This document shows, in pieces, positions 4,601 through 60,140 of a stretch of DNA of 64,000 nt; position 1 is the first letter of the stretch; every line of letters begins with the position of its first letter. Source of the DNA: Glaciimonas sp. PAMC28666 (GTDB taxonomy: Bacteria; Pseudomonadota; Gammaproteobacteria; Burkholderiales; Burkholderiaceae_D). Position numbers and translations under genes: made by a program. Below the pieces are notes generated by a model that saw only the letters and a list, made by a program, of their open reading frames with translations, was not told the origin of the DNA and searched no databases. The stretch covers positions 3,534,001 to 3,598,000 of the forward strand of contig NZ_CP070304.1 in NCBI RefSeq assembly GCF_016917355.1, given 5' to 3'.

Positions 4601-4787
4601 CCGAAGAGGTCATCACGTCCGGACTGGCACCGGGATAAAGCGTCACCACCTGGATTGTTGGATAGTCAACTTCCGGCAACGCCGATAACGGTAACTGCTT
4701 ATAGGCGACGATACCGGCCAAAAAGATGGCGACCATCATTAAGGTGGTGGCGATTGGTCGGAGAATAAATTGCCGGGATGGATTCAT
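1635..4787 (-). CDS. mdtB: MdtB-like RND efflux transporter subunit
   Basis: Inner-membrane RND multidrug transporter of 1050 residues, the usual family length. The N-terminus ([20 protein letters not shown]) holds the first membrane helix; two periplasmic porter loops alternate with two six-helix bundles. The relay segment [15 protein letters not shown] in the fourth helix carries the paired aspartates used in proton translocation. The C-terminus is acidic ([18 protein letters not shown]). The gene lies 108 bp downstream of mdtA and 141 bp upstream of mdtC on the same strand, the gene order of the E. coli mdtABC operon. MdtB is expected to trimerise with MdtC and work with MdtA and a TolC-type outer-membrane channel. 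No channel gene is seen, but it could lie beyond the left edge. Confidence 0.93.
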
Positions 4788-4895
4788 GCGCTATGATCGT
4801 CGTTATACGTTGATGAGTCGTCAGTTGCCTGAGTTGCCTGGATCGCCACTTTGCGCGAAGGCTAAGTGGCGATATTTGCGTATTTCAGATTACGG

Positions 4896-6356
4896 TTACT
4901 TAGCTGGCTGTGGGGCTGGCTGGTCGGTTGTCTGCGCTGGCCGTTTATGCTTTTCACCGCCAGTGCTGGAAGCGGTATCGGCGCTCGCATCCGCGCTTGC
5001 AGTTGCACTTGCACTGGCGGAAGCTCCCTGACCAGCTTGATGGCGATGACCGTGTTTCTGCGTAGCCGCTGGGTTTGGAGCATCGGCGAGTGCGCCGCCC
5101 GCACCGCGCATGACTGGCTCCACTTTGGCACCTTCACGGAGTTTATCGATACCATCAACCACCACAATTTCGCCCGCAGTGATTCCCTTGGCGATGGACG
5201 TATTCTGTCCTTCAACCGGGCCGACGGTTACCGCACGAATAGTCACCGTTTTATCCGCTTTGACGACGTAGACAAAGTTTCCGCTACTGCCACGCTGGAT
5301 TGCTGCGCTTGGAATCACGGTCGCGCCGGATAGCGTATCGAGCAGCATCCGGACGTTGACGAACTGGCTTGGAAATAAGGCGAAGTCAGCATTGGGGAAA
5401 ACTGCCTTCAATTTGACCGTGCCTGTAGTGGCATCTACCTGATTGTCGATCGTCAAAAATTGGCCGCTGGCCAGATTGTTGGCCTGGGCGCGATCCCACG
5501 CTTGGGTTGGCAGGGTTTTCCCGGCCTGAATTTGTTTCATGACGCTGGGAATATTGTCTTCCGGGACGCTAAAGATGGCGGTAATTGGTTGCAACTGAGT
5601 AATAATCACGATGCCGTTGGCGTCCGAGGCATGCACAATATTTCCCAGATCAACCTGCCGCAAACCAAGGCGACCGCTAATCGGAGCGGTCACACGTGAA
5701 TAAAGCAGCTGTAAACGGGCATTATCTAATGTACCCTGATCTGATTGAACGGTACCGCCATATTGTTTGACCAACGCCGCCTGTGTATCGACCAACTGAC
5801 TAGCGATCGAATCTTGGGCCAACAGTGTCTGGTAGCGCTTCAAGTCAATTTGCGCGGCCTTCAGCAATGCAGTGTCATGTCCCAGCTGACCCTCTGCCTG
5901 CGTGACCAGAACCTGGTAAGGACGAGGATCAAGTTCAGCCAGCAAATCGCCCGCTTTGACCATCTGACCTTCTTTGAAATGCAACTTCATCAATTGGCCA
6001 TCGACCCGACTTTTTACCGTTGCTGTGGATTCCGGGGTGACGCTACCGAGGCCCGAAAGATAGATATGGACATCGGAGACCGTGGCGCTGGCAACACCAA
6101 CCGGCATCACGCTATTTGCGCCGCCCGCGCCAGGCCCGCCGCGTCGACCTTTGCCGCCGCTTTGACTGGTCGTGTCGCCTTGACTATTGGCAGGTTGGGT
6201 AATACGACCCCAAAAAAAATATGCCGCGCCACCCAATACGATGATCAACAATAGCCACCACCACCGTCGGAACGACCTGTCAGGCTTATTTTCCATGGTG
6301 TTCGGCTGTTTTGTTGACATAGGATTTTGATTATTCGGTGGTGGGGTTGTGTTCAT
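4896..6356 (-). CDS. mdtA: MdtA-like periplasmic adaptor (membrane fusion protein)
   Basis: Periplasmic adaptor linking the MdtBC pump to an outer-membrane channel. From the ATG at 6356 it has a short proline- and asparagine-rich cytoplasmic tail, one membrane anchor at about residues 32-49 (tryptophan-rich, RRWWWLLLIIVLGGAAYFFWG), a biotinyl-lipoyl-like segment (VTPESTATVKSRVDGQLMKL), a helical hairpin and HlyD-type beta domains. The C-terminus is a low-complexity tail of alternating Ala-Ser and Ala-Asp, encoded by hexanucleotide repeats near 4975-5030. A TTG at 6377 would add seven residues; neither start has a strong ribosome site, so the N-terminus is uncertain. First gene of the mdtA-mdtB-mdtC operon. 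Confidence 0.9.
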   Translation of the reverse strand: MNTTPPPNNQNPMSTKQPNTMENKPDRSFRRWWWLLLIIVLGGAAYFFWGRITQPANSQGDTTSQSGGKGRRGGPGAGGANSVMPVGVASATVSDVHIYLSGLGSVTPESTATVKSRVDGQLMKLHFKEGQMVKAGDLLAELDPRPYQVLVTQAEGQLGHDTALLKAAQIDLKRYQTLLAQDSIASQLVDTQAALVKQYGGTVQSDQGTLDNARLQLLYSRVTAPISGRLGLRQVDLGNIVHASDANGIVIITQLQPITAIFSVPEDNIPSVMKQIQAGKTLPTQAWDRAQANNLASGQFLTIDNQVDATTGTVKLKAVFPNADFALFPSQFVNVRMLLDTLSGATVIPSAAIQRGSSGNFVYVVKADKTVTIRAVTVGPVEGQNTSIAKGITAGEIVVVDGIDKLREGAKVEPVMRGAGGALADAPNPAATQKHGHRHQAGQGASASASATASADASADTASSTGGEKHKRPAQTTDQPAPQPAK

Positions 6357-55188: not shown

Positions 55189-56538
55189 CTAATCGAACGT
55201 TGGCTGGACACTATCGATACCGACTTTCGCACTGCCTTCCGCCAACTGTATTGTGACGATTTGGCGTGGCAGGAGTTCCTTTGGCGTGCGTAAAACAGCG
55301 CCTTTGGCGTTGGTCACAATGGCGTAGCCGCGTTCTAATGTTCGTTGTGGATTTAGCAATTCAAGCTGGGAATTTAGCGCGGACAGTGCGACCCGACCTT
55401 GTTTGTTCTGGTTCAAAAGTGCGCTGCCAAGGCGGCGACTCTGATCTAGAAGCACGGTCTTTGAGCGCCGTGTGTCCGGCAATTGCGTCGACAAGCGGGT
55501 GCGCAAATGCAATAGGGTGTAACGCGATTGTCTTAGGGGAATAGTGGTTGCATGCATCAAGCGGGTTTGCAAGCTCTGCAGTTTCAGGCGTTCGTGATTG
55601 ATTGTGGTCGCGGGACTGACGAGGCGACGCGTCAACCAATCGAGCGTCTGGCCGGTTTCACCCAGTTGGCGCCGGACTGCACGTGTCATATCAGCGGCAT
55701 GGCTGGCCAGGAATGAGAGCCAGTCGTTACGTGGAATGGCGGCCATTTCGGCGGCGGCGGTTGGGGTTGGGGCACGCAGGTCGGCGGTAAAATCCGCAAT
55801 CGTGACATCCGTTTCGTGACCAACGCCGGAAATCACCGGCATCGCGGCCGCGGCAATTGCCCGGGCGACACCTTCGTCATTAAATGACCATAAATCTTCG
55901 ATGCTACCCCCACCGCGACAGACCAGCAGGACATCGCACTCATTACGCGCTGATGCTGTATGAATGGCGCGAGCGATTTTTTCTGCAGCGCCTTCGCCTT
56001 GCACTGGGGTCGGGTATATTACGACGCGCACATGCGGTGCCCGGCGCGCCAGAGTGGTGAGAATGTCGCGGAGTGCCGCGGCTTGCAAACTGGTGACTAC
56101 GCCGATGCATCTGACGAACTGGGGAATAGGGCGCTTGCTTTCAGGGTTGAATAAACCTTCTGCGTTGAGTTTCTCTTTCAGGCGCAAAAATGCTTCGTAT
56201 AAGTTGCCCGCGCCAGCACGCCGGATCGCTTCAACATTTAACTGGTAGTCACCACGCGGCGCGTAGAGCGTTACCAATGCGCGGACTTCAACCTTGTCTC
56301 CCTCGCGCGGGATAAATCCTGCATGCTGGGCCCGTCCCTTGAACATCACTGAGCGCACTTGCGCGCCATCGTCTTTAAGTGTGAAATACCAATGACCGGA
56401 CGCTGCCTTGGTAAAGTTCGATATCTCGCCGGAAACCCATGTGAGAGGGAAGCTGCGTTCCAGCATGCGCGCCACGGCCTGATTCAGCGCGGTGACGGAT
56501 AGTACGGGTGCGGTGCCGACGGGTGGGGCGAAAAGCAT
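55189..56538 (-). CDS. xseA: Exodeoxyribonuclease VII large subunit
   Basis: Large subunit of the single-strand-specific exonuclease VII, 449 residues, with the small subunit XseB encoded elsewhere. The N-terminal OB-fold ([46 protein letters not shown]) is followed by the catalytic domain ([52 protein letters not shown]) and a long helical C-terminal region that binds XseB. The ending LERGYAIV...G is typical. The region directly upstream begins the DnaA-box-rich intergenic zone. Confidence 0.95.
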
Positions 56539-56815: not shown

Positions 56816-56880
56816 AATCAATAACTTAACTATCTTCGTAGCTGTTTACGCACAAAGTTATCCACATTAACTGTGGAAAA
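56816..56880 (+). repeat. IHF/DnaA-box module A
   Basis: It starts AATCAATAACTTA, a full match to the IHF consensus WATCAANNNNTTR. The 9-mer TTATCCACA begins 42 bp later (56858-56866), preceded by CACAAAG. A 5-bp spacer and the inverted, degenerate 9-mer TGTGGAAAA follow. Confidence 0.85.
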
Positions 56881-56986
56881 TTCTGCAAGCAAATTTGATC
56901 AGCGCTCCTGAATGCATGTAGCCATGGTGAGCGTTCATTATTATTCACAGTGCGTCTGAATTATCCAGTCCCACAAAAGTCATTTT

Positions 56987-57051
56987 AATCAAACACTTAG
57001 GTTCACTTTCCCAACCTTGTACACAAAGTTACCCACAATTTCTGTGGATAA
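56987..57051 (+). repeat. IHF/DnaA-box module B
   Basis: AATCAAACACTTA (full IHF consensus) starts the unit. The box 42 bp on is TTACCCACA (one mismatch), and the inverted box TGTGGATAA at 57043-57051 is perfect. A further perfect inverted box lies at 57060-57068. Confidence 0.85.
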
Positions 57052-57068
57052 CTTGACGCTGTGGATAA

Positions 57069-58379
57069 CTAAATGCCAGGCGGAACGACCGCAGGCTCCG
57101 CGTCCGCCTTTACCTTCGCTCTGGACTTAGGCTTAGCTTCACGCTTAGCCTCGGCCTTGGGCTTAGCCTTGGCCTCAGATTTCGGTTTGGACTCAGACTT
57201 GAACTTGGGCTTAGACTCAGACTCAGACTCAGACTTAGGCTTGGGCGTGGACTCAGGTTCAGATTCAGACGCAGAGTCCGACGCGGACTTAGGCCCAGCC
57301 TCCACATCCACCTTGGCTAACGCAACCTGCGCCAACACCACCTTGTGAACGAAGTGCAATTTGTCTTGCACCGGCGTCGATAGTTTGAAGGGATAAGAAT
57401 CGGGTGTGCCGACGCTGCGGTTTAAGCTGTTCAGCACATAGGTCAAGGCAAACCAGTTAGCGATAATTTCTTCGAATGAATCAATTTTGAGAGGTGGCGC
57501 GGTAATCACCATTTCCGGCTCGGCGTCCTTCGGCGGACTGAGCGATAGACCGCAGGCATGGGCGGTTTCCAAAGTGTCGATCATGTGCAGATAATGTGCC
57601 CAGGTTTCCGCCCAATCCTCCCATGGATGCGAACTGGCGTAGACGCTGATGAAGTTTTTTTCCCAGTCTGGCGGTGTTCCCTGTTCATAATGCAGCTTAA
57701 GGCACTCGGCATAGTCCTGGCGCTCATCGCCGAAAAGTTCGCGATAGCTATCGACCCAATGGCTGTCGGCAATTAAACGGTCGAAAAAATAATGTCCGCT
57801 TTCATGGCGGAAATGCCCAAGCAGAGTACGATAACCTTCGTGCATCTGCTCCCGAGTGCGCTCGCGCTCGGCGGGATCGGCTTCCACAACGTTGATCGTA
57901 ATCAAGCCGTTGTCATGACCGGTCATTATCGGTTCTTCGCTCAGGCCATCTTCCAGGAATTGGAAAGCTAAACCGCGTTCTTCGTCTACCTGCTTTGAAA
58001 CCGGGCGCAAACCCAATGACCAGAGAGAGTAAAGAAGACGGCGTTTGGCCGATTCAAGGCGGTGCCAGAAAACATGGTTCTTTTCGTTTAATAAGGAAGG
58101 AATAATGACTGTCAGCTGGCATGAGGCGCAAAAGTCGTTTTCATCACCCGCATCCAGCATCCAATTGCAGACGTGCTGATTGACATAATTACTGCATTGT
58201 TTATAGAGGCGACCGGCATCCACCGAATTGAGGCTGCGCCAATTCCCGTCGTCTGCTAATTCGAAGCTGTTTACCGCGCGTTGTTCGGGTTGATACCCGA
58301 GCGTGCTGCCACAGCTAAAGCATAAAGTATTTTCAAAAAAGACCTGCTGTCTGCACTTGTCACAATGAAAAGTTTTCAT
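57069..58379 (-). CDS. Putative zinc-binding metallopeptidase (PF10005/DUF2248 type)
   Basis: Predicted cytosolic zinc metallopeptidase-like protein of 436 residues; no biological role is known to me. The ATG at 58379 gives the family-typical start MKTFHCDKCRQQVFFENTLC; ATG at 58391 would add four residues. An N-terminal zinc ribbon has two C-x2-C pairs. The catalytic HExxH-like motif is in HFRHESGHYFFDRL, with a downstream SHPWEDWAETWAHYLHM helix that may give the third ligand. From about residue 365 a low-complexity tail of Lys, Pro, Ser, Glu and Ala follows, made from hexanucleotide repeats. The gene is surrounded on both sides by IHF/DnaA-box modules and appears inserted between xseA and exbB. 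Confidence 0.85.
   Translation of the reverse strand: MKTFHCDKCRQQVFFENTLCFSCGSTLGYQPEQRAVNSFELADDGNWRSLNSVDAGRLYKQCSNYVNQHVCNWMLDAGDENDFCASCQLTVIIPSLLNEKNHVFWHRLESAKRRLLYSLWSLGLRPVSKQVDEERGLAFQFLEDGLSEEPIMTGHDNGLITINVVEADPAERERTREQMHEGYRTLLGHFRHESGHYFFDRLIADSHWVDSYRELFGDERQDYAECLKLHYEQGTPPDWEKNFISVYASSHPWEDWAETWAHYLHMIDTLETAHACGLSLSPPKDAEPEMVITAPPLKIDSFEEIIANWFALTYVLNSLNRSVGTPDSYPFKLSTPVQDKLHFVHKVVLAQVALAKVDVEAGPKSASDSASESEPESTPKPKSESESESKPKFKSESKPKSEAKAKPKAEAKREAKPKSRAKVKADAEPAVVPPGI
57085..57300 (-). repeat. Coding low-complexity repeat, tail of the metallopeptidase
   Basis: The tail is built from units encoding K-S-E-S-E, P-K-x-K and E-A-K. The 6-bp core is a variant of GACTCA/GAGTCT, best seen at 57208-57236. 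Frame is kept throughout. Confidence 0.75.
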
Positions 58380-58736
58380 GAGTATCCCCATTGATTGAAA
58401 AGGTTGGTGCTGGCGGTCCAGGTAAGCCGGAATTGATATCTGGCCTATCTCTCGATGAATACTCCGGTGTAATACATTTGAAGAATACTTTGATTAATAC
58501 CGCTCATCTTTCGGACCGATATTTTTCGTGCGATTCACTTTTGTTCTTACCAAAAGCGACGGTGGTCACCATATTACACAAGCAAATACGGGTTTGGGTT
58601 GCGTTCCTGATTGTTGGCTAATTTATTGTGAAAAAGATCTCACTTGCGCGACTTCTTGAGGTTTCTGGCTATAAATTAGGAAAGAGCGCCTGTTCGTTCT
58701 TGCAACTGAATCGCCCAACAGCAAAAATTCTTTGTT

Positions 58737-58801
58737 AATCATAGGCTTAACTAGCTACAAGGTACGTTGTACACAAAGTTATCCACAAATACTGTGCATA
58801 A
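58737..58801 (+). repeat. IHF/DnaA-box module C
   Basis: AATCATAGGCTTA (one mismatch to the IHF consensus), then TTATCCACA exactly 42 bp on (58779-58787), spacer AATAC and the inverted box TGTGCATAA, which reads TTATGCACA on the other strand and matches TTATNCACA. Confidence 0.85.
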
Positions 58802-58948
58802 GTAAAAGGAGTGAAAGTAATGCGCACGTGCAAATAATTGAGAATTTATTTACTGAGCGTTGCCTGGTTGGCTGTCGAGACAATCGGCTTATCGATAACG
58901 TAACCGGGCTTTTGTAGCATTGCTACACAAAGAGCGAAAACCCCGTTA

Positions 58949-59013
58949 AATCAAAGACTTAATCACATCTCAGTGCTGATATGCACAAAGTTATCCACAA
59001 ATTCTGTGCATAA
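58949..59013 (+). repeat. IHF/DnaA-box module D
   Basis: AATCAAAGACTTA (full IHF consensus), TTATCCACA at 58991-58999, spacer AATTC and inverted TGTGCATAA. Spacing is 42 bp as in the other modules. Confidence 0.87.
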
Positions 59014-59162
59014 CTATTTTTGCGTAGGAGCGTTCAATTTAAAGCTGTCTTTTGGGCTATCGTACATTAGGAAATTTGGTCTGTTTTATCGCGTGAGAAC
59101 CTGCGAGGAGAGAAAAATCTGTGGTCTTTACTTACTTTGAACAGTTCGAAAAAGTCGAGCAA

Positions 59163-59227
59163 AATCAAACGCTTAGGTTCACGGGGGTTAAGTTGTTCAC
59201 AAAGTTATCCACATAAACTGTGGAGAA
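59163..59227 (+). repeat. IHF/DnaA-box module E
   Basis: AATCAAACGCTTA (full IHF consensus), TTATCCACA at 59205-59213, spacer TAAAC and the inverted degenerate box TGTGGAGAA. The first 20 bp are nearly identical to module B. Confidence 0.87.
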
Positions 59228-59310
59228 CTTTCTCCATCATATATAAGAACGTTCTTAGCGAAAGCTTGTTAAGTTGCACTTTTTTAATGCAGGCATAAAA
59301 AACCCTTTGA

Positions 59311-59375
59311 AATCAATGGTTTCCCTTCCTGGGAGCATACTTATCCACAATCTTACACACATAAACTGTGAGAAA
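59311..59375 (+). repeat. IHF/DnaA-box module F (diverged)
   Basis: AATCAATGGTTTC (last base off IHF consensus). The 9-mer 42 bp on is the degenerate TTACACACA, followed by TAAAC and TGTGAGAAA. An extra perfect TTATCCACA sits inside the unit at 59341-59349. Confidence 0.75.
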
Positions 59376-59534: not shown

Positions 59535-60140
59535 TTGTTTGCCATTATTCAAGCTGCAGGTTGGCCGATCTGGTTATTGTTGTGCGCCTCTGTGATCGCA
59601 ACGGCTTTAATTATCGAACGTTTAGTCTATTTACGACGTCCTCGTATTTTGCCCCCGCAGTTGCTACAGGAGGTGATCAGGGTTTATCACAACGGGCGCG
59701 TCGACGCTGACGTAGTCGATAATCTGGAAAATAATTCTCCCCTGGGGCGTGTATTGGCTGCCGGATTACGTAACGTTGACGCGCCGCGTGACATGATGAA
59801 AGAGGCAATAGAAGAAGCCGGCATGGCGACGGCGCACGATTTGGCGCGATTCCTGACAACACTTGGAACCATTGCCTCGCTTGCACCGTTGATGGGCTTG
59901 TTTGGCACGGTGGTGGGAATGATTGAAATTTTTGGGTCGACCAACGGCGCTGGCACTGATCCTGCACAACTGGGACATGGAATTTCAGTCGCGCTATATA
60001 ACACGGCATTCGGCATCGGCATCGCGATGCCTGCGCTGGTATTTTATCGCCACTTCCGTGCCACGATTGACAGCTTTATTGTCGATATGGAGCAGCAGGC
60101 GATCAAGTTTGTCGATATCGTCCATGGTGAACGACGCTAG
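59535..60140 (+). CDS. exbB: ExbB/TolQ-family proton channel subunit
   Basis: Inner-membrane subunit of 201 residues of a TonB- or Tol-type proton-motive-force transducer. The start codon is TTG at 59535, supported by AAGGAG six bases upstream and by the short N-terminus leading straight into helix 1 (WPIWLLLCASVIATALIIERL). The conserved MotA/TolQ/ExbB core is TTLGTIASLAPLMGLFGTVVGMIEIF, then helix 3 ALYNTAFGIGIAMPALVFYRHF. The exbD gene follows by about 110 bp. No tonB gene is adjacent. ExbB rather than TolQ is chosen because tol-pal genes are absent. Confidence 0.9.
   Translation: MFAIIQAAGWPIWLLLCASVIATALIIERLVYLRRPRILPPQLLQEVIRVYHNGRVDADVVDNLENNSPLGRVLAAGLRNVDAPRDMMKEAIEEAGMATAHDLARFLTTLGTIASLAPLMGLFGTVVGMIEIFGSTNGAGTDPAQLGHGISVALYNTAFGIGIAMPALVFYRHFRATIDSFIVDMEQQAIKFVDIVHGERR

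Follow-up and report, generated by a model that had tools for sequence, protein, structure and literature searches.

What function might be served by six copies of a predicted DnaA-binding module placed far from the origin of replication? The question is raised by a 64-kb stretch of the Glaciimonas sp. PAMC28666 chromosome (bases 3,534,001 to 3,598,000 of one 5,230,360-base contig; GC content, 52%), hereafter called the window. Here, around a metallopeptidase gene between xseA and exbB, a first-pass annotation had recognized six 65-bp units, each with AATC 42 bp before a DnaA-type 9-mer, a 5-bp spacer, and an inverted 9-mer, and all of these elements are present. Each unit also contains a third DnaA box, an arrangement found in the DnaA-reactivating sequences (DARS) of Escherichia coli, and we consider it probable, at roughly two chances in three, that the locus is a multicopy DARS-type locus that regenerates ATP-DnaA.

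All six modules follow one plan on the plus strand, in which an IHF-type 13-mer is separated by 17 bp from box III, box III by 3 bp from box II, and box II by 5 bp from an inverted box I. Box III, the 9-mer lying 3 bp ahead of the earlier-listed box in every unit, reads TTACGCACA, TTGTACACA, TTGTACACA, ATATGCACA, TTGTTCACA, and TTATCCACA in the order of the modules, and the gap between boxes III and II is AAG in five modules and ATC in one. A scan for the three-box geometry, allowing at most two mismatches per box and three in total, returned six matches in the window, all of them in the array, and none in 500 shuffles of the interval or in 30 of the window as a whole. The description of each module as an IHF site with paired boxes is correct in that the IHF-type end and two boxes are there, but the third box makes it a DARS-type core. 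The left ends, read by eye, agree with the annotated fit to the IHF consensus WATCAANNNNTTR: four units match it in full, and two have a single mismatch.

The exact 9-mer TTATCCACA occurs seven times in the window, at the positions already annotated (56858, 58779, 58991, 59205, and 59341, with 57043 and 57060 on the minus strand), and all seven lie within 2.5 kb; the mean was 0.33 per shuffled window, and none of 100 shuffles reached seven. Single-box matches to TTATNCACA with at most one mismatch numbered 59 across the whole window against a mean of 46.3, slightly more than chance. Because such loose matches barely exceed chance, it is the clustering and the geometry that are unusual. The location is non-coding, the six modules falling between xseA, the metallopeptidase open reading frame (ORF), and exbB.

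The cores of E. coli DARS1 and DARS2, elements reportedly discovered by Fujimitsu in 2009, are where DnaA exchanges ADP for ATP. We compared the window with three E. coli K-12 stretches, containing DARS2 (rppH-ygdT-mutH, L007), DARS1 (bioD|uvrB, L008), and datA (glyY-queG, L009). The three-box scan gave one match in each DARS stretch, with gaps of 3 and 5 bp in both (DARS1, TAATACACA-TGG-TTATCCACA-GGAAT-AGTGGATAA; DARS2, TTCTTCACA-ACT-CTATCCACA-GAAAA-GGTGAATAA), and no match in the datA stretch. According to published work, DARS1 and DARS2 have equal spacing of boxes I to III with box I opposite to boxes II and III (PMC5742627), the head-to-head pair of boxes I and II is essential for DARS function (PMC10380432), and E. 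coli DnaA favors tandem double boxes 2 to 3 bp apart, the 3-bp pair being a general target (PMC11317965).

To find what sets a DARS apart from that general target, we looked for an inverted box 5 bp beyond E. coli double boxes. Eleven double-box strings were sought, from a published table minus its regions for rne, rpoH, and dnaN, and 10 were located. With at most one mismatch, the inverted box was present only at DARS1 and DARS2; elsewhere the mismatches numbered three at the second DARS2 pair, four at datA and nrdD, six at oriC, nrdA, and polA, and seven at purH and mioC. Since the tandem pair is generic and, among the double boxes located, an inverted box this close to consensus was confined to DARS1 and DARS2, the inverted third box is the discriminating mark of a DARS. 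In eight genomes, 30 double boxes were examined for the third box, and 22 of them are followed at 5 bp by an inverted box with at most two mismatches; the eight that lack it include two at the probable oriC of this genome and the second of its hemE|priA cores, both described below.

The modules resemble DARS2 in their three-box core, gaps of 3 and 5 bp, inverted box I, and the presence of IHF-type sequences on the side of box III, and DARS1 in core, gaps, and orientation, box II of DARS1 being an exact TTATCCACA. DARS1 and DARS2 each have a single core rather than six, and no match to the IHF consensus (at most one mismatch) was found near DARS1 in our scan. Because the neighbors are xseA and exbB and not uvrB (DARS1) or mutH (DARS2), the window locus does not occupy the orthologous place of an E. 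coli DARS, although the core plan is equal.

The core pattern CACANNNTTATCCACANNNNNTGTG was found in seven places on the whole contig with at most one mismatch and in 11 with at most two, the latter including the sixth module, against one for a reversed-pattern control. The seven places are five of the six modules, a site between hemE and priA (1,997,936), and position 294,312. A dispersed repeat was rejected on these numbers, and the genome scan that the first-pass annotation had proposed points to a clustered locus rather than a scattered repeat. The match at 294312-294336, alone outside both loci and with one mismatch, fails the three-box scan (L086) and is probably due to chance. The hemE|priA site is accompanied by a second copy of the core about 408 bp away, in which box I is degenerate (four mismatches). 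On the side of box I, both cores there (L043 7900-8500; contig positions of about 1,997,900 to 1,998,500) share CCGGTTTCATAAGC(G/A)CTTTT; the IHF-type sequence AATCAAAGACTTA lies 97 bp ahead of box III of the first (distance taken by hand).

The dnaA gene is at 1.979 Mb. For GC skew, we sampled 40 stretches of 15 kb each, together with the window, the region around dnaA, and 11 others. Negative values prevail on the arc that leads from about 4.76 Mb past the contig end to 2.04 Mb, and positive values prevail between 2.04 and about 4.45 Mb, with small values of opposite sign at 0.262, 1.945, 3.668, 3.799, and 4.323 Mb and mixed values at 4.585 to 4.716 Mb. In the finely sampled part, the cumulative skew reaches its minimum at about 2.04 to 2.05 Mb, and 15 DnaA boxes (at most one mismatch) fall into a single 4-kb bin at that place; oriC probably lies here. 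An origin of replication at the array was rejected on the strength of this switch and box-rich bin, the skew being positive throughout the window with no switch at 3.59 Mb. The array is 1.55 Mb from the probable oriC, far from the origin as had been supposed, and the hemE|priA core is 42 kb from it. The probable oriC itself (L336 13900-15600; contig positions of about 2,039,900 to 2,041,600) is a 1.8-kb non-coding stretch at the skew switch, about 61 kb from dnaA, with three TTTATA(T/G)ATATAAATAGTA... tracts that contain TAG-like triplets. Each tract precedes an inverted DnaA box (TGTGCATAA or TGTGGATAA). The tracts look like three unwinding units, and the triplets are presumably DnaA-trio-like.

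To assess how widely such cores occur, an exact pattern (CACAAAGTTATCCACANNNNCTGTG) was sought in the family and a pattern with free spacers (0-8 and 0-10) in the order. The former was present in 73 of 294 genomes, with no reversed-pattern match in its rows, and the latter in 227 of 299 (reversed control, 4 matches in 3 genomes). Class and phylum samples yielded 169 of 232 genomes (control, 2) and 73 of 199 genomes (control, 1), respectively; 35 of the 128 genomes outside the class had matches (hand count), some with other spacings. Absence of the pattern proves nothing, because the patterns are exact ones that not even the E. coli cores would match. Among the matches listed in the 299-genome search, spacings of 3 and 5 bp accounted for 118 of 150, and the next class, 3 and 3, for 11 of 150, several of these nested in a 3/5 match.

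Gene neighbors were identified by tblastn, with the window proteins, PriA and HemE of this genome, and five E. coli proteins as queries, in 40 stretches (two from this genome and 38 family matches), 60 order-level stretches, and at least 119 further stretches, 226 entering the locus tally. As the stretches were chosen for holding the motif, the tally shows the places of the motif and not the share of genomes with each locus. The set of 40 had the core at hemE|priA in 28 stretches and at xseA|exbB in 10; two stretches had no core in the scan, one being the dnaA stretch and the other (L060) having the motif in the xseA|exbB interval with one box too weak. The 60 order-level stretches had cores at xseA|exbB in 29 cases, at hemE|priA in 18, and elsewhere in 9, with 4 lacking a core in the scan. 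In the further set, among the matches listed, 27 were at hemE|priA or beside priA, 23 at xseA|exbB, 1 at uvrB, and 49 elsewhere, and 19 were below threshold (hand count); the 80 titled stretches among the matches listed were nearly all beta- or gammaproteobacterial, one being titled Alphaproteobacteria. A Rodentibacter core upstream of uvrB, the place of DARS1, served as a positive control. No core fell inside any tested gene in the 226 stretches.

Both loci were found in ten genomes among the fetched stretches (G297, G367, G448, G463, G472, G486, G488, G495, G531, and G542). With own-genome duplicates included, the cores invariably share the strand of exbB (126 of 126 pairings) and that of priA (100 of 100), and they lie on the strand opposite to xseA (130 of 130). 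HemE is 87% identical to its Collimonas silvisoli counterpart and 93 to 96% identical to those of three congeners, and the values for PriA are 86% and 90 to 92%, respectively; the genome is accordingly close to Collimonas but probably not within it. In the xseA-exbB interval of related genomes, which the first-pass annotation had recommended for comparison, cores recur in numbers from one to seven. Arrays of at least three were seen in 13 fetched relatives, all of the family of the window and with named Janthinobacterium and Duganella stretches in addition; the congener G096 has seven cores, and other family members have a single one (L063, L069, and L080). The conserved placement points to conserved control of the start of DNA copying. 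A fixed orientation relative to the fork was not borne out for xseA|exbB, which runs with the fork in seven genomes and against it in three (by hand, with dnaA taken as the origin).

Cores were also seen in other surroundings. Beside malate synthase G, a stretch titled Alcaligenaceae bacterium (L116 2477-3404) has four cores about 300 bp apart, and another (L219, genome G438, about 4732-5345) has two cores by the scan and three pattern matches. In G018 (L227 2549-5100), far from hemE|priA, two cores about 2.5 kb apart lie around an ORF that by eye resembles a UvrD/Rep-type helicase, and G056 (L264) has a core pair at a distance similar to that in G018.

The IHF-type sites hold fixed positions relative to the cores. 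Matches with at most one mismatch to the consensus were counted by their offset from box III at 133 xseA|exbB cores (window included; 89 in arrays and 44 single or paired) and 91 hemE|priA cores. Own-genome duplicates (L082-L088) had been left out beforehand, as had three cores (2 of 135 at xseA|exbB and 1 of 92 at hemE|priA; hand count) that were without 120-bp flanks or identical to another. A forward match at -29 to -31 is present in 66 of the 89 array cores, and a reverse match at -96 to -99 in 84 of the 91 hemE|priA cores and 31 of the 44 single or paired xseA|exbB cores, against a background of 0.4 to 2.0 cores (mean across all offsets, peak included). Each register has a minority in the other class, reverse in 9 of 89 array cores and forward in 3 of 44 single or paired ones, and 7 of 91 hemE|priA cores have neither. 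In E. coli DARS2, the one-mismatch matches are at -87 (reverse) and -71 (forward), with 3 bp between them; because IBS1 and IBS2 of DARS2 are described as merely 3 bp apart (PMC4245941), these matches presumably represent IBS1-2. The hemE|priA IHF-type site would then share its side and orientation with that of DARS2, about one helical turn further out, while the arrays of the window use another register.

Alignment with the congener G077 shows the cores to be conserved islands. In the left half of the interval, 67 of 70 core bases and 22 of 26 IHF bases are kept, against 192 of 434 other bases.

IHF alpha and beta are both encoded, above NCBIfam cut-offs, as are a 77-amino-acid Fis-like protein with a Fis-type HTH_8 domain, which we take to be Fis, and a second, short DnaA-domain protein, likely of the Hda kind. 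DnaA is 51% identical to E. coli DnaA and retains L290, D269, and R285, together with R399, R407, Q408, H434, T435, T436, and A440 of domain IV.

The model of a multicopy DARS-type locus builds on geometry, copy number, intergenic place, synteny, constraint, and fixed IHF registers; binding of DnaA and IHF, nucleotide exchange, and a cell cycle effect at the modules are extrapolated from E. coli. By that analogy, ADP-DnaA bound to boxes I and II would meet head-to-head, lose its ADP, depart as apo-DnaA, and reload ATP, and IHF bending next to box III would gate the exchange. The six cores and the hemE|priA core, with its degenerate second copy, would together set when ATP-DnaA suffices for replication to start. 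Titration of DnaA and control of exbB or priA may accompany such a role.

Several observations weigh against this model. The predicted window IHF sites lie on the box III side, as in DARS2, but their -30 forward register differs from the -87/-71 positions of E. coli, and both registers are absent from 18 of the 89 array cores and from 13 of the 44 remaining xseA|exbB cores. The 3-bp tandem part of the core alone is a general DnaA target (PMC11317965), and activation of E. coli DARS2 depends also on Fis, at sites FBS2-3 (PMC4245941). DnaA of this genome has H at the AID-1 residue R227, which is reported to be important for DARS2 (PMC4245941), and Q at E21. The right half of the interval keeps 104 of 140 core, 34 of 52 IHF, and 378 of 951 other bases in G077, a low retention of core and IHF bases due to the lack of module 3 there. 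Cores were at other places in 58 of 226 stretches (own-genome duplicates included), and 26 of 226 had no core in the scan. Finally, the origin distance varies among genera, unlike in E. coli: the separation of xseA|exbB from dnaA amounts to 14 to 49% of the chromosome (by hand), so a fixed distance is unsupported.

The alternative that survives best, though we consider it unlikely, is a titration array, in which the 18 core boxes and two extra boxes in about 2.5 kb would soak up DnaA without nucleotide exchange. The seven exact TTATCCACA within 2.5 kb would suit this role, and chromosomal titration is supported in E. coli (PMC12371093). However, titration requires neither the head-to-head third box fixed at 5 bp nor the fixed IHF register, both of which are kept, and the single core at the locus in most non-array relatives would titrate little.

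Slightly less probable still is transcriptional control, by which DnaA at the modules would regulate exbB-exbD-lpxK-kdsB, and priA at the second locus. The invariant core strand relative to exbB and priA would suit such control, and E. coli DARS1 overlaps a uvrB promoter repressed by DnaA (PMC6015884), but common descent can also give a constant orientation. The promoter double boxes of E. coli (nrdA, polA, purH, mioC, and nrdD) are likewise tandem boxes 2 to 3 bp apart (PMC11317965) but lack the inverted box at 5 bp, with four to seven mismatches. Furthermore, the modules are spread across 2.5 kb, some beyond another gene, and a promoter and terminator scan of the interval was at chance level (promoter-like matches, 5 versus 3.7).

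The first-pass annotation had left open whether the locus inactivates DnaA, as datA does, or reactivates it. A site of the datA kind, which together with IHF would accelerate the hydrolysis of DnaA-ATP, appears quite improbable. In datA, boxes 2, 3, and 7 are arranged around one IHF site. Like the modules with their IHF-type sequences, datA combines DnaA boxes with an IHF site (PMC4585315); its proposed activity is the opposite of that of a DARS (PMC4585315, PMC10380432). Because the modules are three-box cores and the fetched datA stretch is without such geometry, its double box having no inverted box at 5 bp, reactivation is favored over inactivation. We give almost no credence to a dispersed repeat, an RNA hairpin, or a part of a replication origin: the units are repeated and boxes II and I could form a hairpin in some modules, but the copies are few, the skew turns elsewhere, and box I, in many cores TGTGCAGAA or similar, pairs incompletely with TTATCCACA yet stays DnaA-box-like.

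The coordinates of the modules, the additional boxes, and the neighboring genes are collected in Table 1. The ExbB/TolQ-type gene is followed by an ExbD/TolR-type gene and then by what we take, by similarity, to be lpxK and kdsB. The first-pass annotation had tied the modules to the metallopeptidase gene, which splits the array. This gene is in the interval of the congeners G054 and G077, but there was no tblastn match to it in the xseA|exbB interval of G096; since that interval has seven cores, the gene is incidental and a link to the array was rejected. Its product has a low-complexity C-terminal tail (window 57069-57330), a Lys/Ser/Glu/Pro-rich repeat with weak matches to serine-rich adhesins far below cut-off.

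Table 1. Modules, additional DnaA boxes, and flanking genes of the xseA-exbB interval (window coordinates)
Feature	Position	Strand	Description
Module 1	56816..56880	+	IHF-type AATCAATAACTTA 56816-56828, full match; core 56846-56880: box III TTACGCACA, AAG, box II TTATCCACA, TTAAC, inverted box I TGTGGAAAA
Module 2	56987..57051	+	IHF-type AATCAAACACTTA 56987-56999, full match; core 57017-57051: TTGTACACA, AAG, TTACCCACA, ATTTC, TGTGGATAA
Module 3	58737..58801	+	IHF-type AATCATAGGCTTA 58737-58749, 1 mismatch; core 58767-58801: TTGTACACA, AAG, TTATCCACA, AATAC, TGTGCATAA; without counterpart in congener G077 (alignment)
Module 4	58949..59013	+	IHF-type AATCAAAGACTTA 58949-58961, full match; core 58979-59013: ATATGCACA, AAG, TTATCCACA, AATTC, TGTGCATAA
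Module 5	59163..59227	+	IHF-type AATCAAACGCTTA 59163-59175, full match; core 59193-59227: TTGTTCACA, AAG, TTATCCACA, TAAAC, TGTGGAGAA
Module 6, most diverged	59311..59375	+	IHF-type AATCAATGGTTTC 59311-59323, 1 mismatch; core 59341-59375: TTATCCACA, ATC, TTACACACA, TAAAC, TGTGAGAAA; matches the genome pattern at 2 mismatches
Extra DnaA box TTATTCACA	56941..56949	+	Between modules 1 and 2; not part of the three-box geometry
Extra DnaA box TTATCCACA	57060..57068	-	Directly after module 2; not part of the three-box geometry
xseA, exodeoxyribonuclease VII large subunit	55189..56538	-	Left border of the syntenic interval; TIGR00237, 468 bits (cut-off 180)
Zinc-ribbon metallopeptidase gene (Peptidase_Mx)	57069..58391	-	Splits the array; PF15887 and PF10005 above cut-off
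ExbB/TolQ-type proton-channel gene	59535..60140	+	Right border of the syntenic interval; best NCBIfam matches below cut-offs; gene order in relatives, found with these proteins as queries

DARS-like sequences are said in reviews to be present in many proteobacteria (PMC10380432), and DARS2 spacing is said to be kept in beta- or gammaproteobacteria proximal to E. coli (PMC5742627), the primary DARS2 paper speaking of gammaproteobacteria related to E. coli (PMC4245941); the DARS work that we cite concerns E. coli and its near kin (PMC4585315, PMC5742627, PMC4245941, PMC10380432, and PMC8682772). In the titles and abstracts listed by searches of the open-licence literature, we found no account of a DARS at xseA|exbB or hemE|priA, of arrays, or of a second IHF register. 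The kind of element is therefore already known, and the loci, the arrays, and the second register were not met in the literature searched. The earlier suggestion of an undescribed DnaA control locus fits these results, the modules having few genome copies, being present in congeners and other genera, and not lying beside oriC.

A broader model, which we offer tentatively and at somewhat less than even odds, is that DnaA reactivation in betaproteobacteria is driven by two ancestral DARS-type loci, hemE|priA and xseA|exbB, and that the latter was converted in one lineage to an array that has three to seven cores and uses a new IHF register (-30 forward versus -97 reverse). Core number and IHF phase would then set the initiation clock, and the array would be a multicore kind of DARS not known from E. 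coli. If true, two syntenic DARS-type loci would show the place of this control in betaproteobacteria, a large group with soil, plant-associated, and pathogenic members. The arrays would represent a natural experiment in core number, from one to seven, and in IHF phase, at -30 or -97, and this natural variation would make the effects of DARS dosage and IHF position on replication timing directly testable.

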